DNA from: Bacteroides sp.
GTDB taxonomy: Bacteria; Bacteroidota; Bacteroidia; Bacteroidales; Bacteroidaceae
Direction of reading: 5' to 3'
Assembly: GCA_020861095.1 (NCBI GenBank)
Contig: JAJBTC010000196.1
Coordinates: 1 to 64,000 of the forward strand
Length of the DNA stretch: 64,000 nt
Shown here: positions 34,947 to 37,703 of the stretch, piece by piece
Layout: every line of letters starts with the position of its first letter
Position numbering within the stretch: position 1 is the stretch's first letter
Notes under the pieces: generated by a model
What the model saw: only the letters and a program-made list of their open reading frames with translations
Told to the model about the DNA's origin: nothing
Databases searched by the model: none
Made by a program: the position numbers and the translations under genes

Positions 34947-34988
34947 AAAAAACCGGATATAAAGGAAATTCCTGAATATCCGGTTTTT
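34947..34988. terminator. Bidirectional terminator between DUF6624 gene and tRNA-Asn
   Basis: Stem AAAAACCGGATAT / ATATCCGGTTTTT with A and T tracts on both sides. It ends transcription from either direction. Confidence 0.8.
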
Positions 34989-34990
34989 CG

Positions 34991-35064
34991 CTCTTCCTCT
35001 TGGACTTGAACCAAGGACCCTCTGATTAACAGTCAGATGCTCTAACCAACTGAGCTAAGGAAGA
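34991..35064 (-). tRNA. tRNA-Asn (GTT), copy 1
   Basis: A 74-nt cloverleaf. Acceptor stem TCTTCCT pairs with AGGAAGA; D stem GCTC/GAGC; anticodon arm TCTGA-CTGTTAA-TCAGA gives anticodon GTT (Asn); T arm CTTGG-TTCAAGT-CCAAG; discriminator G. No CCA is encoded. The sequence is identical to the copy at 37570. The upstream promoter has TACTTTTG, with ATTG 20 bp further up. Confidence 0.97.
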
Positions 35065-35085
35065 ATGTTTGTTTCAATGCGATTG

Positions 35086-35093
35086 CAAAAGTA
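35086..35093 (-). promoter_or_regulatory. -7 promoter box of tRNA-Asn copy 1
   Basis: TACTTTTG with ATTG at 20-bp spacing. The same arrangement is found upstream of copy 2. Confidence 0.65.
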
Positions 35094-35354
35094 ATAGCTT
35101 ATTTTGATATATGCAATTTTTGAGAAATAAAAAATAGGAATTAAATCGTTAGCCGCTGGTTTATAGATAGATGGTGACTTTCACTATGGACGTCCGGAAA
35201 GTGACGGATCGTGGGGCGGTGAGATCCGTACCACGTTCTGCATATTCAAAAGTGTACCTACGCTCCTTCGGAAATTATTTACTTAAAGTTTTTGTATTTT
35301 CTGCCTTCACACCTTCACAGGGATATATAAGGTGTTGTATACGAAACTATTAAA

Positions 35355-35403
35355 TGTGAAGGCAGACTGTTTTTTATGCTTTCACCTGCTTTCACGCCTT
35401 CAC
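35355..35403. repeat. Left member of ~50-bp inverted repeat pair
   Basis: About 49 bp (TGTGAAGGCAGACTG... to ...TTTCACGCCTTCAC) recurs in inverted orientation at 37274-37322, with differences only around the T tract. A shorter copy of its end (TCTGCCTTCACA, 35300-35311) makes a local hairpin. It lies in the gene-poor segment between the two tRNA-Asn genes. Confidence 0.85.
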
Positions 35404-35532: not shown

Positions 35533-35815
35533 AAGCACGTTCGATCCCAGCCCGACTTGTCCCGATTTATCGGGAGGGTAAGGAGAAGTGCAGGGAACCG
35601 GAGCGAGCCGCCACCCTGGGTATACACAGATGCGAAACAAAGAGTGCTGAAAGTACGACCGAAACTTAAGATGTTCCATTTCTTTCGATCGTACTTTGAC
35701 TGCGTCTACCGTTGGTTCAGCACTCACTTACGTATGCGGTTCGCAGCCCAGGGTGGTGTCAGACTACACTGCGTTTTGTCTTCCTGACCCTGGGCTGGAA
35801 TCGGCCGTGTTTCCA
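35533..35815. repeat. R4 MITE-like element with inserted R3 motif
   Basis: Ends GTTCGATCCCAGCCCG and CCCTGGGCTGGAATCGG are inverted relatives of the 20950 copy. Relative to that copy it has gained an R3 segment (GACTGCGTCTACCGTTGGTT, 35697-35723) and a small hairpin (TCCCGATTTATCGGGA), so repeats have inserted into repeats. Confidence 0.75.
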
Positions 35816-35867: not shown

Positions 35868-36131
35868 TTATAAATCTGCTGGTTTTATAATAAGCAGATT
35901 GTTATCTACGATTACATCTACCTGGCTGTTAATGGGAAAACCTACCCGATCGAGCCATACTCCCATCAGTCGCAGAAAAGGAATGGATTTGAGTCCGTTG
36001 CTGCTTTTTTTGTTGACTACGCTTTGGGAAGAGACAGTAAGCCGCCTGAGGTGCAGACTTTCATCTGAATTTTTGATCTTTAAGACTTTGGCTTTGAGAG
36101 ACTTTTTACCGGAGGCTTTCGCCGGGTTCAC
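35868..36131 (-). CDS. SymE-like toxin-family protein
   Basis: An 87-residue protein. The C-terminal half, IPFLRLMGVWLDRVGFPINSQ then VDVIVDNNLLIIKPA, matches the SymE_toxin domain (L-G-x-WL-xx-GF-xxG-xx-V-x-V-x-x-x-L-I-I). SymE is an AbrB-fold nuclease/RNA-binding toxin of type I systems. The basic N-terminus (KKSLKAKVLKIKNSDESLHL) carries a second strand-like segment. No ATG is in frame; a GTG at 36131 is the probable start, 19 bp from leader arm 3. It sits alone between two tRNA-Asn genes behind a structured leader and a TATCTTTG promoter. Similarity is recognised by eye, so the family call is probable, not certain. Confidence 0.68.
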   Translation of the reverse strand: MNPAKASGKKSLKAKVLKIKNSDESLHLRRLTVSSQSVVNKKSSNGLKSIPFLRLMGVWLDRVGFPINSQVDVIVDNNLLIIKPADL

Positions 36132-36345
36132 TTTTTTGGTAGTTCTTTTTAAACTGTTCGGTATAACAAAAAAATTAAAGGGTGAATAAAGAAAGGCAGG
36201 TCTCGCCGAACAGTTTACAATAACATAATATTATATATGTCACCAAAAAAGTTTCGGGACTTGCACCCGTAAGCCTGCCTTGTTTTCTTTTAAAATCTGA
36301 GAATGACATGTTATTAATATTATTTATATGTAAACTTATTCGGTA
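36132..36345 (-). ncRNA. Structured leader RNA of the SymE-like gene (predicted)
   Basis: Transcription from the box at 36349-36356 would begin near arm 1 and give a leader of about 210 nt. Arm 1 (36304-36345), arm 2 (36206-36242) and arm 3 (36150-36161) are related. Arm 2 can pair with arm 1 over most of ~37 bp, or with arm 3 as a perfect 12-bp stem (AAACTGTTCGG core). A loop hairpin with a 7-nt loop (ACGGG-TGCAAGT-CCCGA) resembles a tRNA T arm. An extra 8-bp match (36193-36200 with 36274-36281) would form a pseudoknot with the arm 1-2 fold. Regulatory role is inferred; no known riboswitch family was recognised. Confidence 0.5.
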
Positions 36346-36348
36346 CTG

Positions 36349-36356
36349 CAAAGATA
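36349..36356 (-). promoter_or_regulatory. -7 promoter box of the SymE-like leader
   Basis: TATCTTTG on the minus strand matches TAnnTTTG, with ATTG 21 bp upstream as a weak -33 box. The predicted RNA starts at leader arm 1. Confidence 0.6.
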
Positions 36357-36404
36357 GGAAATAGTTACCAAAATCTGCAATAAAATCTTTCATTAATGAT
36401 CAGG

Positions 36405-36545
36405 TATTTAGTTTACAATGTATCTATAGTGCTATAGACACGAGCGATTCCAGCCCAGAGTAAGGTGAAGTGTAGAGGAACGGAGCGAGCCGCCACACTG
36501 GATATAAAAATGATGATAAAAAGTGAGTGCTTCCAGCACTTTTCA
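36405..36545. repeat. R4 element, partial copy
   Basis: The left part of the R4 element (GTTTACAATGTATCTATAGT, then GCGATTCCAGCCCAGAGTAA, GAGCGAGCCGCCAC) matches 20950 onward; the right half is missing or degraded. A second shared segment (GTTTGGGTTGACTGGTT) lies at 36659 and again at 35418. Confidence 0.7.
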
Positions 36546-36987
36546 TATTTGCTGGTCAGATCTATCCATTGCCTGGTTGACTTCGTAAATCTGCGATTCA
36601 GGAGTCTTTTATAGGAAATTGTGTCTGATCTCCTTCCACTAAAGAGAAGAAAAACCGTTTGGGTTGACTGGTTAAGTGTATTCATCCTATTATAAAGAGG
36701 GGGCTTCATCACTTTGGTTGAAAGTCAGTTTGATAGAAAGCCTACCCTTCCTGCTTTCCGAAGCAGTGATCGATGTAGTAATCGAATAGTAAACGACGAA
36801 ACTATATATGGAAGCGATATACGATAGAGAAGAACTTATCACGTACACTCTGCGCCCTGAGAGGGGTATACCCAACAGACATAGTGGTTTGCGACTTGTT
36901 CCGACTGTCCTGTAGGTGTGTAGGCATTACTGTATCCGGGTGTTCTTTACAGGATAGGGTATTGTTTATTCCATGGTATCTTAGTAA

Positions 36988-37075
36988 TCCCATGCCATGG
37001 GACAATACGTCCCGCGGCGTGAAACGATATATCCCACGTCGTGAAACAATAAATCCCACGGCGTGGGATCAGGAA
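36988..37075. repeat. 22-bp tandem repeat, four units
   Basis: Units start at 36988, 37010, 37032 and 37054. The form is TCCCACGGCGTGAAACAATA plus two bases, with the first and last units closed into palindromes (CCCATGCCATGGG, CCCACGGCGTGGG). There are no unique spacers, so it is not a CRISPR. No gene is seen from 36405 to 37569; the ORFs there are read through repeats. Confidence 0.85.
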
Positions 37076-37273: not shown

Positions 37274-37322
37274 GTGAAGGCGTGAAAGCAGGTGAAAGCA
37301 TAAAAAAGTAGTCTGCCTTCAC
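37274..37322. repeat. Right member of ~50-bp inverted repeat pair
   Basis: Reverse complement of the segment at 35355-35403 with about two differences. The pair encloses roughly 1.97 kb containing two R4 copies, the SymE-like gene, its leader and the 22-bp array. Confidence 0.85.
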
Positions 37323-37569
37323 ACATAAAGAACTGATATAAAGTTATTTCGTGCTATCGGTGAAGGCGTGAAGACAATAATCATAAAAAATCTAAGTAGA
37401 AAATCCGGAGGAATGGTACATGAAGGAAAAGGAATGAAAAGTCCGGTAGATAGTATAGAAAGAAATTACAGGATATTCCGGAGTCTGTTTACCCGGACGG
37501 TGGTACGCTGCAAAGCGGAAGAGATACTTTTCATAAAAAAAGTACGACCACCGGGTCATACCTTTTTTG

Positions 37570-37643
37570 CTCTTCCTCTTGGACTTGAACCAAGGACCCT
37601 CTGATTAACAGTCAGATGCTCTAACCAACTGAGCTAAGGAAGA
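37570..37643 (-). tRNA. tRNA-Asn (GTT), copy 2
   Basis: Identical over 74 nt to copy 1 at 34991, with the same anticodon arm and no encoded CCA. The upstream ~50 bp is also similar to copy 1, including TACTTTTG (37665-37672) and ATTG at 20-bp spacing. Here that region also holds the divergent promoter of the PfkB kinase gene. Confidence 0.97.
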
Positions 37644-37664
37644 ATGTTTTTCTCAAATGCGATG

Positions 37665-37672
37665 CAAAAGTA
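37665..37672 (-). promoter_or_regulatory. -7 promoter box of tRNA-Asn copy 2
   Basis: TACTTTTG with ATTG 20 bp upstream, the same as for copy 1. Confidence 0.65.
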
Positions 37673-37695
37673 ATAGGATATTTTGAAATATGCAA

Positions 37696-37703
37696 TATCT
37701 TTG
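37696..37703 (+). promoter_or_regulatory. -7 promoter box of the PfkB kinase gene
   Basis: TATCTTTG 16 bp before the ATG at 37720. It overlaps the -33 region of the divergent tRNA promoter. Confidence 0.6.

Follow-up and report, generated by a model that had tools for sequence, protein, structure and literature searches.

The c4 RNA of the phages P1 and P7 is a trans-acting RNA of 77 nt. This RNA (RF01695, with the a1b1 element) is encoded in the leader before an anti-repressor operon, the translation start of which is covered by complementary segments. In P1/P7 heteroimmunity, the specificity of c4 differs between relatives (PMC12197685), and the a1b1 motif has been listed alongside c4 (PMC2864571). 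In Escherichia coli, the SymE-family gene symE is repressed by SymR, an RNA that pairs over the 5' end of the gene and whose promoter lies inside symE on the opposite strand (PMC1891008). In the type I toxin mRNAs timP (PMC11228461) and aapA1 (PMC6733600), alternative folds gate translation. The active fold of timP has a pseudoknot (PMC11228461). Some type I toxin mRNAs contain upstream open reading frames (ORFs). The leader described here, which precedes a SymE-like gene in a 64,000-nt stretch of Bacteroides DNA (the window), resembles each of these systems in some of these respects.

The leader lies on the minus strand (Table 1). The elements that a preliminary description had listed for it were all found: a promoter box, which is of the Bacteroidota type with the -7 box TATCTTTG; a long imperfect helix between arm 1 and arm 2, which is the predicted minimum-energy fold; a perfect 12-bp helix between the cores of arm 2 and arm 3; a T-arm-like hairpin; and a pseudoknot match between the strands a and a'. 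The -7 box was called from the general Bacteroidota promoter consensus, and the transcript presumably starts at about 36345. Among the relatives, TAnnTTTG is found upstream in 45 of 48 instances, and arm 1 begins about 6 nt past the box. Between arm 2, which ends at 36206, and a', the window copy reads GGCGAGA. The folding energy of the window leader is ordinary in comparison with shuffled sequences (z = -1.0), so the minimum-energy z-score was dropped as evidence, and the case for a real element rests on the comparison among relatives.

Table 1. Leader features at the window locus, and instances of the second core
Feature	Position	Strand	Sequence, partner or basis
Whole leader	36345-36150	-	Promoter box just upstream; ~210 nt
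Bacteroidota-type promoter	36349..36373	-	TTTTGG 36373-36368; -7 box TATCTTTG 36356-36349
Arm 1, predicted transcript 5' end, helix b included	36304..36345	-	Core CCGAATAAGTTTACAT 36342-36327; covarying partner of arm 2
Helix b, 5' strand	36304..36310	-	CATGTCA; partner b' 36242-36237; covaries
Upstream ORF, 44 aa	36175..36309	-	ATG 36309-36307 within helix b; passes through arm 2 and a'
Pseudoknot strand a	36274..36280	-	AGGCAGG; compensatory changes with a'
T-loop hairpin P3	36255..36270	-	ACGGGUGCAAGUCCCG, ACGGG-UGCAAGU-CCCG; loop consensus UGNRAGU
Arm 2 and b'	36206..36242	-	Core TAAACTGTTCGG 36217-36206; partner arm 1 or arm 3
Conserved GNGACC and pseudoknot strand a', then U-rich tract	36194..36204	-	a' CCTGCCT 36200-36194; a:a' covariation
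Arm 3 and ancestral start-codon site	36150..36164	-	CCGAACAGTTTA 36161-36150; start-codon site 36164-36162; relatives, covariation
SymE-like coding frame, 98 codons counted from ATA	35868..36164	-	PF08845 comparison
Second-core instances	L125, L138, L155-L181, L182-L193		Bacteroidota phages including P. gingivalis prophages

The start of the window gene differs from the one first proposed. In most intact instances, the main ATG is located at the 5' edge of arm 3, and the window copy carries ATA at that site; the GTG at 36131, to which the start had been assigned, lies 11 codons downstream of the ATA in frame and is consequently not the ancestral start. The protein of the window scores 26.7 bits against PF08845, below the cut-off of 29, whereas four paralogues in the same genome score 34-41 bits, so the membership of the window copy in the SymE family rests on the paralogues. 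Three further copies (L003, L005, and L008) retain an intact leader with the SymE frame out of register with the start. The ATA codon and these out-of-register paralogues suggest that the toxin may decay while the leader is retained. Several SymE copies are frameshifted, and some copies may be relics; given its ATA start, the window copy may be a weakened allele.

The window genome contains six leader matches, of which one is partial and degenerate; one congener has a further set. The homologous unit, which takes in the SymE gene, spans about 540 bp and occurs in multiple copies. For every SymE hit, 5/5 in the window genome and 7/7 in the congener (G032), the leader precedes the SymE domain by approximately 100-250 bp. 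As observations on the surroundings of the window copy, two tRNA-Asn genes (within a 134-nt direct repeat, 91% identical, 34984-35117 and 37563-37696) and a perfect 34-nt inverted repeat (35370-35403 and 37274-37307, 1870 nt apart) enclose the region of the SymE unit. A 50-nt repeat (84% identical, 35575-35624 and 36457-36506) flanks the unit, parts of it recurring beside other copies, and a run of short palindromic repeats of TCCCACGNCGTGRRA-like units occupies 36980-37070.

A wider search with two covariance models of the leader also retrieved it from other Bacteroidales families, from Runella, and from IMG/VR phage contigs. It is present in at least about 10 of the 395 Bacteroidia genomes sampled, with eight candidates per genome scored, and the Bacteroidia genomes and IMG/VR phages together yield more than 50 instances, all of these prevalence figures being lower bounds. 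Class-1 leaders had no match in the INPHARED phages, the SymE unit had none in plasmids, and other Bacteroidales SymE genes lack this leader. Six candidates (L039, L053, L055, L070, L078, and L085) and most of the GC-rich viral pattern matches were rejected as chance, three others (L111, L119, and L124) are plain terminators, and L016 has decayed, its arms being mismatched.

In 36 distinct arm sets, the mean pairing energy of arm 1 with arm 2 was -20.4 kcal/mol within a leader versus -7.5 kcal/mol for arms taken from other leaders or shuffled, and that of arm 2 with arm 3 was -17.1 versus -7.5 kcal/mol. For either helix, none of 20,000 permutations reached the self values, although the instances are partly related and these counts are not strict probabilities. 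The arm1:arm2 helix comprises about 17 bp with 11% G-U pairs, and the arm2:arm3 helix about 12.5 bp with 5%. The arms shift jointly as triplets, reading CCGAA/TTCGG/CCGAA in some copies and CCCAA/TTGGG/CCCAA in others, and the phage arms, for example GCGACACA or CTTAGCA, are quite unlike these. Even between copies that are 88% identical within one genome, a C-to-G change is carried in concert through all three arms.

The core of the leader behaves differently from the arms, being near-invariant across phages and hosts (GGCnnACGGkUGNRAGUmCCG ... GNGACC). Both-sided, compensatory changes occur at 5/7 pairs of the a:a' pseudoknot, and the apical pair of the T-loop hairpin is GC, UA, or AU across instances; 99% of the cells of a:a' and this apical pair are paired, and the a:a' signal is lost when the partner strand is slid. 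The stem of hairpin P3 is fully paired in 45/45 rows, and its loop is always UGNRAGU, T-loop-like. In addition, b:b' is a fourth covarying helix (self -9.1, other -5.3 kcal/mol; 0/20000 permutations). The eight nucleotides after a' have a T fraction of 0.76 and are terminator-like. The preliminary description had proposed that compensatory changes in all three arms be sought among homologues, and they were found with very strong support; the idea that control is built into the leader through alternative pairing is likewise supported by the three-arm covariation. These sequence comparisons confirm that the leader is a real RNA element, in which arm 2 is predicted to pair either with the transcript start or with the gene start.

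No Rfam family matched the leader at the gathering thresholds, at which only tRNAs were detected in the window, and scans below these thresholds (E up to 10 in the window and up to 5 in six phage loci) returned only chance-level hits. A second core, taken up below, likewise matches no Rfam family, and neither core is described in the open-access literature searched. The leader appears to be a structured RNA class absent from Rfam.

The stabilities of the two folds were compared by constrained folding with penalties, the pseudoknot energy being left out of the totals. For the window leader, the two folds amounted to -36.3 and -34.5 kcal/mol. Over 43 leaders, the energy difference averaged -1.5 kcal/mol (sd 3.1), and the folds were less than 5 kcal/mol apart in 35. 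Since arm 2 is in neither helix in the predicted fold of 9 of the 43, this near-equality in the folding model is suggestive only. Taken together, the comparative and thermodynamic data, with the pseudoknot energy excluded, predict mutually exclusive folds of similar stability, one of which contains a pseudoknot, as in timP.

We favor, with a probability of roughly two in three, an autosilencing mRNA leader in which arm 2 would cover the start codon unless arm 1, at the 5' end, captures it. Transcription would start at arm 1, and arm 2 would act as a built-in antisense segment on the same strand. When paired with arm 3, arm 2 would bury the start codon and turn the gene OFF; when paired with arm 1, with the help of helix b and of the a:a' pseudoknot next to it, it would leave the main start codon free, the latter fold presumably being ON.

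The genes behind the leader are SymE genes (PF08845), Bro-N/ANT and Rha-like phage anti-repressors, and genes for small proteins without known function. The leader is not an element specific to SymE. The protein of L112 was judged Rha-like by eye, and that of L169, which has the second core, matches Rha-like and anti-repressor families in PHROGs. At L082, a small ORF is followed by an ORF that looks by eye like an anti-repressor, an arrangement reminiscent of icd-ant of P1. Small proteins of 65-80 aa directly follow anti-repressors in phages (L065, L069, and L075). Leaky expression of these downstream genes is likely to be costly, and the purpose of the leader would presumably be the tight silencing of hazardous genes, namely SymE toxins and phage anti-repressors.

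The differences per site among four related Bro-N phages amount to 0.52 in arm 2 and 0.50 in arm 3, versus 0.21 in the coding region and 0.10 in a'. In the group of genome G1476, the arms (0.46 and 0.53) exceed the core (0.20) and the spacer (0.22), and the coding region, at 0.43, is not exceeded. The SymE copies show a weaker contrast (arm 2, 0.25; arm 3, 0.16; coding region, 0.15; a', 0). The arms are hypervariable and yet change in concert between close relatives. In the complete genome G1476, four paralogous copies (L113, L120, L122, and L123) have four arm sets, each pairing best with itself; the four proteins behind them, of about 90 aa, are likewise paralogous. Self-pairing is also mostly the strongest among the SymE copies in the window genome and those in G032, with some residual cross-pairing.

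A cis switch alone does not readily account for such concerted diversification, which suggests trans-acting specificity, as in c4 of P1/P7. Arm 2, contained in a short terminated or processed RNA, would probably also silence other transcripts with the same arm 3, which would explain the diversification. In the fullest form of this explanation, to which we give slightly less than an even chance, the leader up to the U-tract would be freed as a short RNA resembling c4, and arm 2 would silence transcripts with a matching arm 3, and arm 1, conferring immunity or antitoxin specificity. The preference of copies for themselves, the anti-repressor targets, as in P1 c4 (PMC12197685), and the U-rich tract after a' all fit this explanation. 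Conversely, arm 1 or arm 3 of the same transcript should capture arm 2, and some copies still cross-pair substantially, at -14 kcal/mol in one example. A trans-acting RNA of this kind is compatible with the autosilencing cis switch.

In 38 of 41 instances, an ATG precedes the hairpin by 30-56 nt, compared with 6-12 instances for neighboring intervals. Of these 38 ATGs, 33 have a frame that remains open across arm 2 and GNGACC, the other two frames being open in 5 and 8. The frame in use mostly avoids the stop codons in the TGTAA loops. Among these upstream ORFs, each of the three possible frames relative to the core is used, so coding conservation of the upstream peptide was rejected; what seems to be conserved is translatability, not the peptide. 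As the upstream ATG lies within helix b:b', the arm1:arm2 fold would bury it and expose the main start. When the upstream ATG is free, ribosomes on the upstream frame would cross arm 2 and could melt the arm2:arm3 helix; the upstream ORF would be a further input to the autosilencing leader, and we infer a role of the upstream ribosome in switching.

The same ORF could instead belong to a translational attenuator, in which ribosome traffic would set a:a' and termination at the U-tract against masking of the start by arm 2. The conserved, open upstream frame with its avoidance of stops is in keeping with an attenuator, which can still be considered because the U-rich tract follows a'; however, the peptide is not conserved and all three frames are in use, a 7-bp stem with over 70 nt in its loop makes a poor terminator, and a few copies (L004, L057, and L079) have no open upstream frame. 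We regard the attenuator as rather unlikely.

In genome G508, two SymE genes lack the first core and have another, CCCYGUGUGGAGYGUUAAUGCRCC, in its place, again with a promoter, arm 1, arm 2, a:a', and arm 3. This second core was found in 27 further viral contigs by a pattern scan and in Porphyromonas gingivalis prophages. Its arms likewise covary: the arm1:arm2 pairing energy is -28.6 versus -13.7, and that of arm 2 with the start region -19.8 versus -15.0 (0/20,000 permutations). At one locus of the P. gingivalis prophages, three concerted arm alleles, GCATTCCAC, GCCTTACAC, and GTCATACAC, occur with a nearly constant core, which also speaks for the c4-like trans-acting RNA. Annotated hypothetical proteins in these prophages read straight across the second core; hypothetical proteins annotated over such leaders in phage genomes may carry misannotated starts.

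The leader had also been suggested to be riboswitch-like. If it sensed a ligand, the T-loop hairpin and the pseudoknot would form the aptamer and arms 1-3 the expression platform, for which the near-invariant core would speak. A resemblance to the cobalamin riboswitch (RF00174) was seen by eye, in a GGUGNRANUCC hairpin and a GAGACCUGCC box pairing with GGCAGG, but scans with RF00174 gave no hit, either in the window (E up to 10) or in the phage copies (E up to 5), and the rest of the aptamer is absent, so the resemblance is attributed to chance. No metabolite is common to the toxin, anti-repressor, and other phage genes, which are unrelated; a different core does the same job with the same logic; an expression platform would not usually have such hypervariable arms; and no Rfam family matches. 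Metabolite sensing is thus unsupported, and we consider it improbable. The notion that the inverted repeats are an AT-rich coincidence or mobile-element ends, to which the multicopy block and the shuffle-like folding of the window leader might point, is practically eliminated by the permutations and the covarying helices, by the fixed position between promoter and start codon, and by the occurrence before unrelated genes in unrelated phages.

On the best reading, the autosilencing leader would be functionally like the c4 RNA of phage P1 and the type I toxin mRNAs. As in c4, a segment complementary to an anti-repressor translation start is found, in the covariation of arm 2 with arm 3 and the Bro-N/ANT/Rha genes downstream; the covariance model RF01695, however, had no match in any scan (E up to 10 in the window and up to 5 in six phage loci, the second core also being scanned). 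Unlike c4, the leader has a core of T-loop hairpin and pseudoknot, a Bacteroidota promoter, and a conserved upstream ORF, and it is also found before SymE genes. In contrast to SymR, the antisense segment here is on the same strand, within the leader. For a SymR-like antisense promoter over the start region, no clear enrichment was seen: TAnnTTTG occurs there at 0.47/kb on the antisense strand and at 0.34/kb on the sense strand. The likeness to timP and aapA1 is drawn at the level of function. Here, the two folds have arm 2 in common, arm 2 covaries with each of its partners, and anti-repressors make up many of the phage targets.

The Bacteroidota phages and the chromosomal SymE loci may have a common, undescribed RNA specificity system, with at least two dissimilar cores in the same three-arm design. 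Concerted change of the arms would create new immunity types, and a resident copy would silence an incoming anti-repressor or toxin only on an arm match; we hold this larger view tentatively, at somewhat less than an even chance. To our knowledge, few regulatory RNAs have been characterized in Bacteroidota. The leader class connects the control of phage lysogeny with type I toxin control in these bacteria, and if the arms set specificity, swapping three short matched segments should alter which copies silence each other.
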